NCBI GenBank assembly: GCA_020444175.1
Contig: JAHLLM010000002.1
Coordinates: forward strand, 1-64,000
Length of the DNA: 64,000 nucleotides
Reading direction: 5' to 3'
DNA from: Desulfobulbaceae bacterium
Lineage (GTDB): Bacteria > Desulfobacterota > Desulfobulbia > Desulfobulbales > SURF-16
Each line of letters begins with the position of its first letter. Within the stretch, counting starts at the first letter, position 1. Positions 3,089-36,073 of this stretch are shown piece after piece. The notes under the pieces were generated by a model. The model was given only the letters and a program-made list of their open reading frames with translations, had not been told where the DNA came from and did not search any database. Position numbers and translations under genes: made by a program.

Positions 3089-4684
3089 ATGAAGGTTATA
3101 CAGACTACCCATACAAAACTTATTCTGTGCACGGCTCTTTTTTTCGTGCTTTTTGACAACCTGGCGTTTTTTCGAAATGTTGTGGAGGTATATCCCGTCA
3201 GTCTGAAGAATATAGGGTTTCTTGCTTCATTAGCTGCAGTTCTTACAGCATTTATCGTATTATTAATCACTCTGGTGAGGTCGAGATACATGACCAAACC
3301 GGTTTTAATCCTTTTTCTGCTGTTATCTTCTTCTGCCGCTTATTTCATGGATAATTTCAATGTGGTCATTGACCACAACATGATCCGGAATATCGTGCAG
3401 ACGAACCTGAATGAAACCATTGATCTCTTTAACCTCAAGCTGGTTACGTATTTTCTGCTGCTTGGTTTTCTGCCATCCTTGGTCGTTTACATGATCAAAT
3501 TTGAGCCCGTATCCTGGAAAAGGTCTGCTGTCGTCAAATTGCGAGATGTATGTGTGTGCCTGTTGGTTATCTTCGGACTCGTGCTTGTCTCAAGCAGATT
3601 TTATACATCGTTTTTCAGGGAACATAAACACCTGCGCTATTACACCAACCCAACTTACTTTATCTACTCAGCCGGGAAATACATCAACAGCACCTTGCGA
3701 AGTAGTACCGTGATGGCTCACTCTCTGGGCAGCGATGCCCGGATTCCAATAGAAGACGTTGACAGGGAACTGATCATTCTGGTTGTTGGTGAAGCGGCTC
3801 GGGCTGACAGGTTCTCCCTGAATGGCTATGCTAGAGAGACAAATCCGCTTCTCAGCAAGGAGGATGTTCTTTCTTTTGCGAATATGTATTCCTGTGGAAC
3901 GTCAACCGCCTATTCCGTGCCCTGTATGTTTTCCATTTTCCCTCGAAAGGAATACAGCGACAGCAAGGGGAAGTCCACTGAAAATCTCCTGGATGTGCTG
4001 CATCATGCCGGTGTTCATGTGCTGTGGCGGGACAACAATTCCGATTCAAAAGGAGTGGCTCGCAGAGTGCCGTATCAGGACTACAAGCATCCGCAGGTTA
4101 ATCCTGTCTGTGATGAGGAATGTAGAGATGAAGGGATGCTGGTTGGTCTGCAGGACTACATAGATACGCAGCAGGATGGCGATATCCTCATTGTTCTCCA
4201 TCAGATGGGAAATCACGGTCCGGCTTACTATAAAAGATACCCTGAAGCATTTGAAAAATTTACCCCGGTTTGCAAATCAAATCAGTTTGATGAGTGTACT
4301 AAAGAGGAAATCGGCAATGCTTATGACAATGCCCTTCTCTATACTGATTATTTTCTTGACCAGGTTATAAAATTACTTAAAAAAAATTCAGCAGAGTTTG
4401 AAACAGCGATGTTGTACATGAGTGACCATGGCGAATCACTAGGCGAATACGGCCTCTATCTGCATGGCTTGCCCTATTCAATGGCGCCTGATTTTCAGAA
4501 GCATATTGCTGCCTTCCTCTGGTTTGGCGACAGTTTTAAGGTTGACAGGAAGGCGCTTCGGGACAAAGCGTCCAGGCATTTTTCCCAGGATAACCTCTTT
4601 CACACCGTCCTTGGATTGATGGAAGTGAATACAGCAATATACGATAAAAAACTGGATATATTACATTACGATACCGATTATTGA
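3089..4684 (+). CDS. eptA: Lipid A phosphoethanolamine transferase (EptA-like)
   Basis: Inner-membrane enzyme of 531 residues that transfers phosphoethanolamine from phosphatidylethanolamine to lipid A phosphates, lowering surface charge. The N-terminal 200 residues hold about five hydrophobic segments; the rest is a periplasmic sulfatase-fold domain. Visible signatures are GEAARADRFSLNGY near 233, the CGTSTAYSVPC segment with the presumed nucleophile Thr273 and the flanking disulfide cysteines 269 and 279, and MSDHGESLGEYG near 444 supplying zinc ligands. The length fits the EptA/Mcr family. It is monocistronic, with no clear Shine-Dalgarno at the ATG. A different acceptor, such as core sugar, is possible; the specificity is inferred. 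Confidence 0.9.
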   Translation: MKVIQTTHTKLILCTALFFVLFDNLAFFRNVVEVYPVSLKNIGFLASLAAVLTAFIVLLITLVRSRYMTKPVLILFLLLSSSAAYFMDNFNVVIDHNMIRNIVQTNLNETIDLFNLKLVTYFLLLGFLPSLVVYMIKFEPVSWKRSAVVKLRDVCVCLLVIFGLVLVSSRFYTSFFREHKHLRYYTNPTYFIYSAGKYINSTLRSSTVMAHSLGSDARIPIEDVDRELIILVVGEAARADRFSLNGYARETNPLLSKEDVLSFANMYSCGTSTAYSVPCMFSIFPRKEYSDSKGKSTENLLDVLHHAGVHVLWRDNNSDSKGVARRVPYQDYKHPQVNPVCDEECRDEGMLVGLQDYIDTQQDGDILIVLHQMGNHGPAYYKRYPEAFEKFTPVCKSNQFDECTKEEIGNAYDNALLYTDYFLDQVIKLLKKNSAEFETAMLYMSDHGESLGEYGLYLHGLPYSMAPDFQKHIAAFLWFGDSFKVDRKALRDKASRHFSQDNLFHTVLGLMEVNTAIYDKKLDILHYDTDY

Positions 4685-4882
4685 TCATCTGGAAATGGAA
4701 AAAGGTTTGAAGTTCTCTCAATTCTCGTCTTTTTTTAATTCACCAGATCCAGCATTCCTGCCGAAGTAAACAACAGTATCGAGTTGATGTGTGTTACTGG
4801 TACATTGATTTTCGTCTGTACATTTTGAGGTAGAGAAAAAGGGTGCGAGCCCACCATAATAGAAAAACAACAGGAGAGGAAA

Positions 4883-5089
4883 ATGGCAAAAATTATTTTG
4901 GAAGACCAGCAGGCCGCTTTATTGCTCGGCGCGACAGAAGACGGAATTCAGGTAGACATGGCCTACGAAGGTCAGGTGGGTTTGGCGGCAGGACTCTGTG
5001 AGGTGATTGCCCGTCGTCTGGTGGAGGATGAGGATTTTCGCCAGGAACTGCTTGACCAGGTTCAGAAAAATGCGGCAGGAGACTATTAA
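4883..5089 (+). CDS. Small conserved-looking hypothetical protein
   Basis: Encodes 68 residues, beginning MAKIILEDQQAALLLG and ending acidic (VEDEDFRQELLDQVQKN). A strong AGGAGAGG lies 6 bp before the ATG, which supports translation. There is no signal peptide, membrane segment or metal motif. The composition suggests a short beta-strand N-terminus with a helical C-terminus. I do not recognise the family. It is monocistronic, followed by a short palindrome (5100-5119). Confidence 0.6.
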   Translation: MAKIILEDQQAALLLGATEDGIQVDMAYEGQVGLAAGLCEVIARRLVEDEDFRQELLDQVQKNAAGDY

Positions 5090-30657: not shown

Positions 30658-30675
30658 TAAAGGAGGATGGGAAAC

Positions 30676-33060
30676 ATGGCGCAATCAAGAAGAGAATTTC
30701 TGAAAAGAACGGCTGCCCTCAGTGCGGCTTCATATATCGGTATGAATCTTCCTTACCGGAAACAAAATGCTGCCCTGGCAGCAGATGCTGATTCCTGGCA
30801 TCGGGGATCGTGCCGGCTTTGCGGAACCGGCTGCCGGGTTGAGCTGGGCGTAAAAAACGGCAAGGCTGTTGCCTTGCGCGGTGTCAAAGACGCGCGTACC
30901 AATTTTGGCTATCTCTGTATGAAGGGCATGCATTTCTGGAAATGTATGGGGCACCCTGACCGGCTTCGCACGCCTCTTTACCGTGAGAGTAAAAAAGACA
31001 AATTCCGGGAAATCAGCTGGGAAAAGGCACTGGATATTGCTGCAGAAAAATTTGCCGATTCCGTTAAAAAATATGGCAATGATTCTGTGGCCTATTACGG
31101 CTCCGGACAGGCGCTCACCGAAGAAACCTATCTTTTTCAGAAGGTGTTCAGAGGAGGCTTGCAAACCAATAACGTGGAAGGGAACCCGCGTCTGTGCATG
31201 GCAAGTGCCGTGGGAGGCTATCTGACCTCTTTCGGGGCGGATGAACCGATCGGTGGCTATGCGGACATTGAGAAGGCCCATTGCTTCTTTATCATCGGAA
31301 GCAACACGGCCGAGGCCCATCCTGTACTTTTCAGGAGGATAATGCGGCGCAAGCTCGATAACAAGGATGTCAAGATAATCAATGCCGATCCCAGGATCTC
31401 CCAGACATCGCGAATTGCCGATCTGCATCTGCAGTTTGATCCGGGAACGGACCTGGCGCTGCTGAATGCCATGGCCAATGTTATTATTGAAGAAAAGCTC
31501 TATGACGAAAAATTTCTTGAAAGTTACGTGACCTGTAAAAAAGGGAAAAAGGAAACCGTCAGCTTTGAGGAATTTAAAAAATTCGTGGCCGATTATACGC
31601 CGGAAAAAGCGGCTGCCATCTGTAGAGGAAACATGACTCCGGACAAGATCAGGCAGACAGCCCGCTGGTTTGCAGGATCAAAGGGAACACTCAGTCTGTG
31701 GACCATGGGCATTAATCAGCGAAAAAGGGGTGTCTGGGCCAACAATCTGATACACAATCTGCATATCCTGACCGGGCAGCTGTTGACGCCTGGAGCGGAC
31801 AGCCTGTCGTTGACCGGCCAGCCCAATGCCTGCGGCGGTGTGCGCGAGGGTGGCGGACTCTGTCATATACTGCCGGGTCATCGTCTTGTGGCCAAGGAGA
31901 AACTGCGTAATCAGGTGGAGGATGCCTGGGGGATTCCCCATGGGCGCATCCCCCCTAAGCCCGGATATCATACAATGGCGCTTTTCTCAGCAGTAAACGA
32001 GGGCAAAATAAAGGCACTCTGGGTCAACTGCACAAGCCCCATGCAGAGCCTACCAAATGTTGACCTGTATTCCAAGGGTATGAGGCGGGAAGATGTCTTC
32101 ATGATATGTTCGGACATTTTTCCAACCTTGACCACCGAAGCGGCAAATCTGGTTCTGCCTGCGGCATTTCATTTTGAAAAAACCGGAGTTTACGGATGCA
32201 CGGAGCGACGTTCCCAACTGACTCTGAAGGCGGTGAACGCACCTGACGGGGCCATGCCGGAAGTCTGGATTGTGCGGGAATGGGCCAAAAAACTGGCCGA
32301 AAAGATGGATGATCCCGTTATCAGTAAATGCGTGGAGCCCTTTGAAGGGCTGGAGCCTGATTTTGCCTTACCAAAGGCCATATGGGATGAATACAGCCAG
32401 AAGCTGACAAGTGGACGTGATAACGATCTGCGCGGCGCAACTTACACTGTCTTGCAAAAGATGCCGGATGGCGTGCAGTGGCCTGCCCCTACTGAGGCTT
32501 ATGCCCTGACCGGCGGCACGGTGAAAAAGTTTGTACGCGGCATGGACCCCCTGGCTGATACCCATGCCAAAGATGACAAACCCTATCAGTTTTACGGTCA
32601 TGCCCATGATGATGGAAAACTCTGGCTGTGGCTGCGGGAACAGGCTGACCCGGAAGAGATTCCAGATAAGGACTATCCCTTCTATCTTTCCACCGGCCGC
32701 ATCGTCGACCACTGGCATACCATGAGTATGACGGGACGAATTCCTGAATTGCTGCGAGCCAATCCCTATGCCTTTGTCGAGGTCAATCCCAGGGATGCTG
32801 CCAAACTGGGAATAAAGCCGGGCGATATGGTCGAGGTTGAGTCTCGCCGTGGCAAAAATTTTCTGCCGGCAAAGGTCTATGAAGGACCAACCGAAGGAAT
32901 GGTCTTTGTTTACTGGCATGATCAGCATCCGGATCGTCTCATTAATATGGTGACCAAGGACGGCTATGATCCCGGATCAAAAGAGCCGGAGTTCAAGATC
33001 TGCGCCTGCCGGGTCAAAAGGATCTCCGGACCAAAACCATTAAAGCCCTATATCGTTTAA
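30676..33060 (+). CDS. napA: Periplasmic nitrate reductase catalytic subunit
   Basis: Molybdenum bis-MGD enzyme of 794 residues reducing nitrate to nitrite in the periplasm. A Tat signal begins SRREFLKRTAALSAAS. [4Fe-4S] ligands are Cys46, Cys49, Cys53 and Cys81. The Mo-ligand cysteine is Cys174 in the NapA-type motif NPRLCMASAVGGY, followed by DEPIGGY. The C-terminal molybdopterin-binding beta-barrel begins near STGRIVDHWHTMSMTGRIPE. ATG 30676 is chosen because AGGAGG sits 9 bp upstream; the ATG at 30667 is fused to that Shine-Dalgarno. Close to the monomeric Desulfovibrio NapA but somewhat longer. Nitrate specificity is inferred from motifs and from napD, napG and napH. Confidence 0.92.
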   Translation: MAQSRREFLKRTAALSAASYIGMNLPYRKQNAALAADADSWHRGSCRLCGTGCRVELGVKNGKAVALRGVKDARTNFGYLCMKGMHFWKCMGHPDRLRTPLYRESKKDKFREISWEKALDIAAEKFADSVKKYGNDSVAYYGSGQALTEETYLFQKVFRGGLQTNNVEGNPRLCMASAVGGYLTSFGADEPIGGYADIEKAHCFFIIGSNTAEAHPVLFRRIMRRKLDNKDVKIINADPRISQTSRIADLHLQFDPGTDLALLNAMANVIIEEKLYDEKFLESYVTCKKGKKETVSFEEFKKFVADYTPEKAAAICRGNMTPDKIRQTARWFAGSKGTLSLWTMGINQRKRGVWANNLIHNLHILTGQLLTPGADSLSLTGQPNACGGVREGGGLCHILPGHRLVAKEKLRNQVEDAWGIPHGRIPPKPGYHTMALFSAVNEGKIKALWVNCTSPMQSLPNVDLYSKGMRREDVFMICSDIFPTLTTEAANLVLPAAFHFEKTGVYGCTERRSQLTLKAVNAPDGAMPEVWIVREWAKKLAEKMDDPVISKCVEPFEGLEPDFALPKAIWDEYSQKLTSGRDNDLRGATYTVLQKMPDGVQWPAPTEAYALTGGTVKKFVRGMDPLADTHAKDDKPYQFYGHAHDDGKLWLWLREQADPEEIPDKDYPFYLSTGRIVDHWHTMSMTGRIPELLRANPYAFVEVNPRDAAKLGIKPGDMVEVESRRGKNFLPAKVYEGPTEGMVFVYWHDQHPDRLINMVTKDGYDPGSKEPEFKICACRVKRISGPKPLKPYIV

Positions 33061-33141: not shown

Positions 33142-33447
33142 ATGCCCATTGGCGGATTTATTGTAAATGCCGTACCTGAAGATCTGGAAGTTGCTGTGGC
33201 TTTTTTGACGGCAATTCCGGAAGTGGAAATTCATGGTCATGACAAGGGTGGCAATATAGTTTTAGTGATTGACGCGCCGGACAGTGAACACATGCAGAGG
33301 GTTGTTAAAAAAATAAACGACTGTGCCAGCGTCTTAACCGTTGGGCTTACCTATCTGAATGTGGAAGATGAGGCGGATACGATTCCAGCTGGCGCAGATG
33401 TAACAGGCATTTTCCATGGAGGACCCGCGTCAGGGAGTGCGGGGTGA
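33142..33447 (+). CDS. napD: NapD-like chaperone for NapA
   Basis: A 101-residue cytoplasmic protein with the NapD ferredoxin-like fold pattern: GGFIVNAVPEDLEVAVAFLTA, PEVEIHGHDKGGNIVLVID and VVKKINDCASVLTVGLTYLNVED. NapD binds the NapA Tat signal and delays export until cofactor insertion. AAGGAG lies 8 bp before the ATG. The GTGA overlap with napG shows translational coupling. The acidic/glycine tail (last ~20 residues) is longer than in many NapD proteins. Confidence 0.9.
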   Translation: MPIGGFIVNAVPEDLEVAVAFLTAIPEVEIHGHDKGGNIVLVIDAPDSEHMQRVVKKINDCASVLTVGLTYLNVEDEADTIPAGADVTGIFHGGPASGSAG

Positions 33448-34037
33448 AACGACGTGTTTTTTTGAAGGCAGTGGCCGGACTGTCCGGCCTCCTATTTTTG
33501 CCCTGTCCTGCCAAAGCGGGAAAATTTTTTTCCTCGCCCCTTGCCCGAAACCGTCTGCGCCCTCCCGGCGCTGTTTCTGAAGAAATTTTTGCCGGTAAAT
33601 GCATTCGCTGCGGCCGCTGCGTTGAAGTCTGTCCCTATAAGTCGATCATTCCCCTTGACATAAGAAGCGGGGTGTATGCCGGCACGCCGCTGGTGCTGGC
33701 GGAAAAGGTGCCTTGCTACCTGTGCATGAAGTGCGTTAAGGTCTGCCCCACCGGCACCCTGCAAAAAATTGGTCAGGAAGAAACGCGGATGGGGCTTGCC
33801 GTTATCAATCGGCATCTCTGCTACAACTGGCAGGAAATGACCCTTTGCCGCACCTGCTATGACGTTTGTCCTTTCAAGGAAAAAGCAATTTCCCTGCATG
33901 AACTGAAACCCCTTATCCATGACGATTACTGCACTGGTTGCGGTATCTGCACCCATGCCTGCCCGGTAACGGCGGATGATGGGCAAAAGGCGGTTAATAT
34001 TGAGTCCCTTTACGCAAATGAAACCGTGAGGTGGTAG
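33444..34037 (+). CDS. napG: NapG-type periplasmic ferredoxin
   Basis: A 197-residue protein with a Tat signal (KRRVFLKAVAGLSG). Four [4Fe-4S] binding sets: CIRCGRCVEVCP, CYLCMKCVKVCP, a C-terminal-half set with CRTCYDVCP, and CTGCGICTHACP. It belongs to the MauM/NapG family and would pass electrons from NapH to the periplasmic cytochrome NapM. GTG start overlapping the napD stop; 3 bp separate its stop from napH. Confidence 0.9.
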   Translation: MKRRVFLKAVAGLSGLLFLPCPAKAGKFFSSPLARNRLRPPGAVSEEIFAGKCIRCGRCVEVCPYKSIIPLDIRSGVYAGTPLVLAEKVPCYLCMKCVKVCPTGTLQKIGQEETRMGLAVINRHLCYNWQEMTLCRTCYDVCPFKEKAISLHELKPLIHDDYCTGCGICTHACPVTADDGQKAVNIESLYANETVRW

Positions 34038-34040
34038 GGG

Positions 34041-34871
34041 ATGCAAAAAACTGCTGACAGGACACCAAAACAGCATATCCGGCGTTGGCGCTTACTGGTT
34101 CAGACCGGTGCATTTCTCCTTCTCATTATCACGCCTCTGCTTAATTGTCATTTTCAGGTAAATTTCGTCCAGGGCTGGTTTCAATCACTGGGTATCGGCA
34201 AGTTCTGGATTGTTTCGCCCCTTGAGGGATTGGAAAGCCTGCTTGTCGCTAAAATTATCTATCTGCCGTTGTTGATCGGCATGCTTTTTCCCATCATCAT
34301 TGCCCTCTTTCTTGGCCGGGTATTCTGCGGTTGGGTGTGTCCCATCCACTTTCTTTCCGATCTTTCGGACCGCGCAGTGCGGCTGTTTATTCGGAAAAAA
34401 AATCCAAAGGATTTTCTGATTCTTCCCCGTTCTCTGCTGTGGTTTGTCTTGATTGTTGAACTTGTTCTGACTATGGTACTGGGAGCACCGCTTTTTGTCT
34501 TTCTTTCCCCGCCCGGGCTTGTGGGGCGTGAAATAATGCGTGTTGTTTTTTTTCATACATTGGCCTGGGAAGCACTCATCGTGGTGGCCGTACTTGCGGC
34601 AAATTTTGTAACACGCCGCCTGTTCTGCCGTTATTTCTGTCCTCTGGGCGCCTTGCTTGCTTTCCTGGGAGGAAAGAGGAAGCTTGTGATCAGCCATGAG
34701 CCTGAATCCTGTTCATCCTGTGGTTTGTGCGCACGAGCCTGCCCCATTGGGCTTGATCCTGCTCATGGTGAAGGTTTGTCAATGCACTGCTGGAATTGCG
34801 GTGAATGTGTGGAAAACTGTAAGGAGAGGTCCTTACGCCTTGGCTGGCAGAAAAAACTCGGTAGAGGGTAA
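34041..34871 (+). CDS. napH: NapH-type membrane ferredoxin (quinol dehydrogenase)
   Basis: A 276-residue membrane protein with four hydrophobic segments, two cytoplasmic-side cysteine motifs CGWVCP and CRYFCPLG, and a C-terminal pair of [4Fe-4S] sets (CSSCGLCARACP and CWNCGECVENC). In NapGH-type systems it accepts electrons from menaquinol. With no napC in the cluster, NapH-NapG-NapM is the only visible route from quinol to NapA. The TAA stop overlaps the ATG of the next short frame (TAATG). Confidence 0.9.
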   Translation: MQKTADRTPKQHIRRWRLLVQTGAFLLLIITPLLNCHFQVNFVQGWFQSLGIGKFWIVSPLEGLESLLVAKIIYLPLLIGMLFPIIIALFLGRVFCGWVCPIHFLSDLSDRAVRLFIRKKNPKDFLILPRSLLWFVLIVELVLTMVLGAPLFVFLSPPGLVGREIMRVVFFHTLAWEALIVVAVLAANFVTRRLFCRYFCPLGALLAFLGGKRKLVISHEPESCSSCGLCARACPIGLDPAHGEGLSMHCWNCGECVENCKERSLRLGWQKKLGRG

Positions 34872-35083
34872 TGGACAGGACAGACTATCGCGGCGATTGT
34901 TGAAAAGGATTTAAAGACGTTAGGTTGCGTCTGAAGAACAGCTCTATGGGCATGCGTTTCAGTTTTATCTGCGCACTTGAGCAGGCAGGCAAGATGGACA
35001 GGGTCATTGCCTATGCGGATGGACGGGTGATCTCGAAGCAGAGAACCCCTGTAGGGGCGATTTATGTTGTCGAAAAAACGTAA
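34871..35083 (+). CDS. Candidate 70-residue selenoprotein ending the nap operon
   Basis: The ATG overlaps the napH stop (TAATG). The frame reads MDRTDYRGDC, then TGA (34901-34903), then continues open for 59 codons (KGFKDVRLRLKNSSMGMRF ... GRVISKQRTPVGAIYVVEKT) to TAA. Eleven bases after the TGA a 5-bp stem AGACG/CGTCT (34915-34932) with loop TTAGGTTG forms, the same spacing as in the E. coli fdhF SECIS element. Decoding TGA as selenocysteine would give a redox-type Cys-Sec pair. No family is recognised. The loop lacks a G in its first two positions, a point against. The alternative is a stop-interrupted pseudogene or no gene. Confidence 0.38.
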
Positions 35084-35090
35084 TAAGCGC

Positions 35091-35255
35091 CTAACAGGCT
35101 GTTGAAAAATGTAGCGAGCGAAGCGGAGACAAGGATTTATGCCCTTCAGGGTGAAAATGAGGCGAAAAAGCGCAGTTTACATGGAGTAAATGAGCATTTT
35201 GAGCCGAATTTTGACGCAGTATCAGCAAGCGCAGTAGTTTTTCAACAACCTGCTA
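35091..35255 (+). mobile_element. MITE-like element, copy 1
   Basis: About 165 bp with terminal inverted repeats: left CTAACAGGCTGTTGAAAAA, right GTTTTTCAACAACCTGCTA. Almost the same sequence, including the interior around GGATTTATGCCCTTCAGG, recurs at 61444-61633, 26 kb away. There is no coding capacity. It lies 8 bp after the candidate selenoprotein frame and may end the nap transcript region. Confidence 0.82.
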
Positions 35256-35262
35256 AGGCGCA

Positions 35263-35316: not shown

Positions 35317-35667
35317 TCAGTGAATTGTGTCCGTTTCCTCATCGATGAAAAGCTGACGCACACCGTGGGTCATTTCTTTTTGGTTTATTTTTTCAATGGC
35401 CTCCTCTTTGGAAACTCCAAGCGAGTCGGCAATGCTTTCGATGTCGTAGCAGGGTTGTCCGTCCGGGGTGTACCCTGTTTGCCTGATTTCCGGAAAGCAG
35501 CTGTTTGTCGCAATGCTTGATGCCTGACCCAGGATTTCTTTTATCTCGGGCGGTCCGTAGAGCAGGAGCCATTCCACCGCATCGGCCCATGTTTTGCTGT
35601 CCACGGTTTTATTCTCAAGAACGGCCATGGCCATTTCAAGATCCCATATTTTTTTGAAATCGCTCAT
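35317..35667 (-). CDS. Hypothetical protein, 116 residues
   Basis: Started at ATG 35667 (AAGGGA upstream); the frame is open to 35763 but the extra N-terminus is atypical. Acidic soluble protein: MSDFKKIWDLEMAMAVLENK, WADAVEWLLLYGPPEIKEIL, then CFPEIRQTGYTPDGQPCYD and a helical segment IADSLGVSKEEAIEKINQKE that resembles a short helix-turn-helix. Not assignable to a family by eye; no partner gene. Confidence 0.65.
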   Translation of the reverse strand: MSDFKKIWDLEMAMAVLENKTVDSKTWADAVEWLLLYGPPEIKEILGQASSIATNSCFPEIRQTGYTPDGQPCYDIESIADSLGVSKEEAIEKINQKEMTHGVRQLFIDEETDTIH

Positions 35668-36073
35668 TTTTTTCCCTTGTTGTATGTTTTTTTGTGTTTT
35701 TACACAGCATGACTGTTTCCACGCAGAAGAATTGCGTTTGGTATATGCCTTCATGCCAATCAATTTGGAACCAAAATGAAAATAATCATATCAATATCAT
35801 AAATCAACGTAACTGTTCAGTGAACCTAGCGGGACGTTGCGCCTGTTTCAAGAGGCATATGAAGTAATAAACACGGAGAACACAAAGAAAATCCTTCAGC
35901 CACGGGGAAAAATATTTTTTTGCTCCGGTTATGTCGTGATCTTCGTATGAAAAATTACTCTTGCTCCTTTGAAACAGGGCCCTGTACCTGAATAGGTGAG
36001 CGGCTGTCTCTCTGGACAGCGGCAGAAAATAGATATAATGTGCGCATTTATCCTGACTCCAACTAAGGCTATT
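35668..36073. other. Divergent intergenic region
   Basis: Separates a leftward hypothetical gene from the rightward peptidase/ChaN fusion. It contains GTAACTGTTCAG (35809-35820), a near-match to the reverse complement of the 18-bp repeat, and a distant inverted pair CCTGTTTCAA (about 35841) and TTTGAAACAGG (about 35968). A weak AT-rich TGAAAATAATCATATCA sequence could be a degenerate Fur site. Confidence 0.4.

Follow-up and report, generated by a model that had tools for sequence, protein, structure and literature searches.

A family of small Cys-Sec proteins in Desulfobacterota, very probably of TusA-like fold, with a proposed role in sulfur transfer

The window (the whole stretch of DNA analysed, 64,000 nucleotides from a Desulfobulbaceae bacterium) is contig C28 of a 5.4-Mb genome. 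Its forward strand carries napA (30667-33060; the 797-aa catalytic subunit, assigned by Pfam and NCBIfam), napD (33142-33447; PF03927), a gene for a napG-like ferredoxin (33444-34037; NCBIfam) and napH (34041-34871; a polyferredoxin assigned by the NapH/MauN models). The napH stop codon overlaps, in the sequence TAATG, the ATG (34871) of a short gene on the same strand (34871-35083), which our reading of the frame and its relatives assign to a 70-aa selenoprotein. With U for Sec, its translation is MDRTDYRGDCUKGFKDVRLRLKNSSMGMRFSFICALEQAGKMDRVIAYADGRVISKQRTPVGAIYVVEKT. As the preliminary description had reported, codon 10 is TGT and codon 11 is TGA (34901-34903), giving the vicinal Cys10-Sec11 (CU) motif (34898-34903), and the following 59 codons are open up to a TAA (35081-35083). 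The AGAGGG located inside the end of napH (34863-34868) is a plausible ribosome-binding site, judging from the sequence only.

Two nucleotides after the stop codon of this gene starts a MITE-like element (35086-35262) with 18-nt terminal inverted repeats (35092-35109 and 35238-35255); 49 match rows in the genome correspond to about 40 complete or fragmentary copies of it. Further downstream, a convergent gene on the reverse strand (35317-35763) encodes a 148-aa protein with a WLLLYGPPEIKEILGQAS stretch and no Pfam or NCBIfam match. Several genomes of the family keep the latter gene in synteny with that of the selenoprotein (L001, L079; the L081 and L082 matches are apparently antisense frames).

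The absence of selB or selC had been named beforehand as an observation that would speak against selenocysteine (Sec). The same genome encodes a tRNA-Sec (selC) with the anticodon UCA, together with selA, selB and selD. The selD gene (L149, G000:C79:89271-90194) is itself a selenoprotein gene with an in-frame TGA.

When Sec was coded as Cys, a protein search of near genomes recovered the frame from 30 of 97, almost invariably with a single TGA in frame. Profile searches retrieved members in 82 of the 258 genomes sampled from the order (of the 105 matches, 97 read through a TGA), in 15 of the 39 genomes of another order, and in the phylum at large (29 of 395 genomes matched, 27 with true members, the other two matches being ABC-protein artefacts). 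The matches L005, L077 and L078 were spurious, and the plasmids gave no match to the family. Candidatus Electrothrix gigas is one named relative, found by exact-peptide scan; phyla beyond Desulfobacterota were covered by one such scan only, which does not imply absence of the family outside the phylum. Upstream of a distant member (L042), and directly adjacent to it, lies a NapH-like polyferredoxin gene (4137-4967, reverse strand) whose product is 29% identical to the NapH of the window; a Nitro_FeMo-Co protein follows this polyferredoxin.

We read 104 distinct gene sequences, not counting partial hits or the f3 copies treated further on. Of these, 103 have TGA at codon 11 and one has TAA; codon 10 encodes Cys in 103 and Ala in one. 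The core motif of the family is D-[YS]-[RK]-x-[DEN]-C-U-x-[GA]. Homologues with either Cys or Sec at codon 11 had been named beforehand as support, and the Sec form was the one encountered: no Cys-for-Sec relative was found among the 258 genomes of the order, the 395 of the phylum and the 39 of another order. Cys homologues would have scored, since the profile rows had C at the Sec position, yet none appeared; each of the inspected rows with no stop was a spurious match, a partial hit or an f3 copy carrying a Leu codon. Cys-containing homologues are usual for bacterial selenoproteins, but they are not a defining requirement.

Purifying selection acts on the codons past the TGA. Between the window copy and a same-genus copy, the region after the TGA has a pS of 0.55 and a pN of 0.13, with 9, 6 and 25 differences at the first, second and third codon positions, respectively; pN is well below pS downstream of the TGA in every pair examined. 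Codons on both sides of the TGA are conserved across the phylum, and indels are absent near the motif. A lack of such codon-level conservation was what the preliminary description had named as refuting its claim.

The second signal is a bacterial SECIS hairpin (34915-34932, forward strand), supported by folding and by covariation in the relatives. In the window, 34915-34920 pairs with 34927-34932 (A-U, G-C, A-U, C-G, G-C, U-G), and a U.U mismatch (34921/34926) encloses the apical loop AGGU (34922-34925), which lies 18 nt after the TGA. The minimum free energy (MFE) is -7.7 to -9.5 kcal/mol, varying with the length folded, and the hairpin of this copy is a weaker variant. The conserved stem-loop begins 11-12 nt downstream of the TGA; in relatives it is a 7-bp hairpin (most commonly GGACGTA-AGGT-TACGTCT or GGACGTA-AGTT-TACGTCT) with its loop 18 nt past the UGA. 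In 47 sequences, pairing holds in 97.6% of the cells, with double changes at five of the seven pairs (24 double-changed cells versus 4.3 in shuffles); covariation reaches 0.364 versus 0.234 in shuffles, above all 500 of them, and slid controls reach at most 0.155. The clearest signal links the last base of codon 17 (usually a Val codon, so that the change is synonymous) to the middle base of codon 19: A, G or C in the former goes with T, C or G in the latter. These bases form Watson-Crick pairs in 98 of 104 members versus 48.5 in shuffles (maximum 67 in 20,000 shuffles), with at least 12 state changes by parsimony, although a 60-residue protein offers too few supported branches to give an independent-pairs test power. 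Compared with synonymous-codon resampling, the MFE right after the TGA has a mean z of -0.45 (sem 0.12), other segments ranging from -0.19 to +0.36; this signal is only modest, most of the stem being dictated by the encoded amino acids.

The published bSECIS rules (PMC13188914) ask for a stem of 4-16 bp, a loop of 3-9 nt, a G in the first two loop positions, a distance of 16-37 nt from the UGA and an MFE <= -7.5. All of them, as coded in this analysis, hold for 85 of the 104 members; the window copy agrees in stem, spacing and energy, and departs from the G rule when the U.U mismatch is taken as part of the loop. The earlier doubt about a loop that does not start with G is thus true of the window copy and originates from its U.U mismatch at the loop-closing pair; in most relatives this pair (pair 21) is Watson-Crick and the loop is NGGU or NGUU, all 104 sequences having a G at the second loop position. 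About 100 relatives share the TGA, the preceding Cys and the hairpin, far more than chance would give. Together, the conserved TGA, the SECIS covariation, the selection after the TGA and the presence of selA, selB, selC and selD bear out the small new selenoprotein suggested earlier: 34871-35083 almost certainly encodes a genuine one, and we strongly infer that Sec is incorporated in the cell.

As regards the fold, AlphaFold models from two alignments led by different sequences had pLDDT values of 93.9 and 96.7. For both models, the seven best VIA matches were TusA/SirA/YeeD structures (8k1r, 8j4c, 1dcj, 3lvj, 3hz7, 3lvk, 2lxr), with Z scores of 8.6-10.6 for the first model, where a tRNA methyltransferase scores the same as the lowest of the seven (8.6), and of 8.2-9.9 for the second. 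Other IF3-C/Alba-like folds come next (Z about 7.7 and below, around 7); this arrangement is common, a point against the assignment. On balance, the product is very probably a free-standing b-a-b-a-b-b domain with a TusA-like fold, as modelled. In 1dcj and 3lvj, residue 13 of TusA (Asp13) is matched by Asp1 of the second model, and a further six residues, if ungapped, place the Sec on TusA Cys19, the established catalytic Cys. In this register, the Sec would occupy the place of the TusA catalytic Cys.

The likeness lies in the predicted fold and in the position of the catalytic chalcogen, where helix 1 begins, whereas the sequences differ: the family has a Sec for the Cys and another Cys directly before it, and lacks the CPxP motif of TusA (its C-U-x-[GA] has no Pro). 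Pfam gave no TusA (PF01206) match over the cut-off, and hhalign against a TusA profile from the same genomes was not significant (probability about 1%, E 0.06, versus 0.27 for the reversed control). Because these comparisons provide no sequence evidence for common descent with TusA, we describe its fold as TusA-like and do not place the family in PF01206. The same genome has a separate TusA-type protein (220 aa, G000:C36). YedF, the SirA-like protein of selenium metabolism, shares the TusA-type domain and occurs in selenium-using bacteria; to our knowledge it is not itself a selenoprotein. The YeeE/YedE thiosulfate-transporter selenoprotein (GUxSG) contains Sec and is the partner in sulfur uptake of the TusA-fold protein YeeD, but it is a membrane transporter of unrelated sequence; YeeD decomposes thiosulfate on its Cys (PMC11073785).

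From the predicted fold and the position of the Sec, we propose the following pathway. Guided by the hairpin (34915-34932), SelB and Sec-tRNA(UCA) would insert selenocysteine at the UGA (34901-34903) and thereby put Cys and Sec side by side at the N-terminal end of helix 1, with the Sec in the position of the TusA catalytic Cys. The selenolate may then attack the sulfane sulfur of a persulfide, polysulfide or thiosulfate from a desulfurase, a rhodanese or a similar donor, and carry the sulfur as a perseleno-sulfide. The neighbouring Cys10 would resolve this intermediate, releasing (hydro)sulfide and leaving a Cys-Sec selenenylsulfide for re-reduction. The protein would accordingly be a sulfur carrier/reductase that brings its own resolving thiol and does not serve nitrate reductase in particular. 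Taken as a whole, the proposal (selenoprotein, TusA-like fold and sulfur-carrier/reductase role) is somewhat favoured, its functional part standing as a hypothesis. More tentatively, and with less than even confidence, this could be the first Sec-dependent TusA-type sulfur carrier, occurring in sulfur-metabolising Desulfobacterota in the Sec form only, whose Cys-Sec pair both takes up and reductively releases sulfane sulfur or thiosulfate; it would have been overlooked because predictors look for Cys homologues.

A protein of the same fold could instead work mainly as a thiol/selenol redox relay, or bind metals or metalloids through its Cys-Sec pair, without carrying sulfur. We regard this as a possible but rather unlikely reading: the metal-handling selenoproteins SaoL, HgcA and MbdU have vicinal CU motifs (PMC13188914) and the CPxP typical of TusA carriers is missing, whereas the fold and the register agree with sulfur-handling proteins and no conserved metal-resistance neighbour was found. 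The neighbours of carriers include a Na/Pi cotransporter, a response regulator/kinase, CreA, TatC, Dus and a CxxCxxCC protein, the only sulfur-related one being a class-V aminotransferase of the cysteine-desulfurase type (L035); no operon is conserved across the carriers examined.

This gene neighbourhood also bears on the claim that the gene provides a redox-active site beside a nitrate-reductase electron path. Its product could be a Nap or molybdoenzyme accessory, i.e. a TusA-like sulfur donor for molybdenum-cofactor maturation or a part of nap electron transfer, and PA1006, a TusA-family protein of Pseudomonas, does carry a persulfide, and every nitrate reductase activity depends on it (PMC3568144). 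The gene directly follows an intact napH in the window and in G019, and NapD is commoner in carriers (48 of 82 versus 69 of 176 non-carriers; uncorrected Fisher p 0.005, overlap counted by hand). Against this, NapD is missing from 34 of the 82 carriers, G014 and G021 keep an intact selenoprotein gene next to a napH that is truncated or frameshifted, and nap proteins were not found in the flanks of most other carriers. The Cys-Sec pair of the earlier claim stands, and the anticipated placement after napH holds here and in a few relatives, the neighbours being unrelated elsewhere. The nap link of the family is suggestive at best; a role in the nitrate electron path is weakly supported because the link is local and partly decayed, and we consider it improbable.

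Decayed copies are the material from which one could argue that the TGA is a true stop, ending a 10-codon leader or marking a broken gene with conserved downstream remains. In G016 (L036, G016:C227), where no selB passed the cut-off, a 1-nt insertion directly follows the TGA and the hairpin is still intact; an otherwise intact W-type member (L151, G487:C24) has TAA at the Sec codon; and L045 reads ACC TGA, having lost both the Cys and the hairpin. The indel-free conservation of the codons around the TGA across the phylum, the low pN after it and the covarying hairpin make a true stop highly improbable. In the f3 family, located beside tatC, L022 and L023 carry DCU and the hairpin, while L039, L040, L044 and L046 have D-T-L or D-I-L (TTA or CTG) and no hairpin, the protein being otherwise conserved (tatC was located in the flanks of L039, L040 and L044; the shared locus of some other f3 copies was deduced from similar upstream sequence). 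This DCU-to-DTL series with loss of the SECIS is natural material for studying how Sec genes die. Readthrough of the UGA by another mechanism (a suppressor tRNA or a reassigned code) is the least credible reading of all, having nothing specific in its favour beyond the frame open through the TGA, and facing a position-specific SECIS that fits the published model (PMC13188914) in most members, a complete sel machinery and the disappearance of the hairpin where the TGA is lost.

The family of about 70 residues is a phylum-wide group of previously uncatalogued selenoproteins. Searches of Pfam, NCBIfam and PDB sequences gave no usable homologue, no NCBIfam model matched the ten members tested, and Rfam had nothing relevant; DUF7219 (E 0.004) fell below its cut-off. 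The family had been described as not recognised, which holds for its sequence (no Pfam or NCBIfam match over the cut-off) and not for its predicted fold, that of TusA/SirA. Neither TusA/SirA nor this family is among the 119 prokaryotic selenoprotein families of the 2026 inventory (PMC13188914), and a full-text literature search, with subscription papers mostly outside it, found no report of the family. The selenoproteins SaoL, HgcA, SaoC, MbdU, DUF466 KCU-star and CopZ-like form 2 share the adjacent Cys and Sec, but they have other domains and contexts, and an NCBIfam scan of our family matched none of their models. The deep-Sep hypothetical selenoproteins DG, DW and DF (PMC12013277) are also small, uncharacterised and from Desulfobacterota; unlike our family, which matches none of their NCBIfam models, they have Cys homologues. 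Methods relying on Cys homologues would miss families that have no Cys form. The deep-Sep screen of Desulfolithobacter dissulfuricans GF1 yielded 0 new selenoproteins (PMC12013277), and this strain, which G519 appears to represent, appears to carry a member of the family.

Our findings add a selenoprotein family, present in about one third of the sampled genomes of the order, to a catalogue that Cys-homologue methods cannot complete. Should the TusA assignment be right, selenium takes part in the intracellular trafficking of sulfur in Desulfobacterota, including the cable bacteria.
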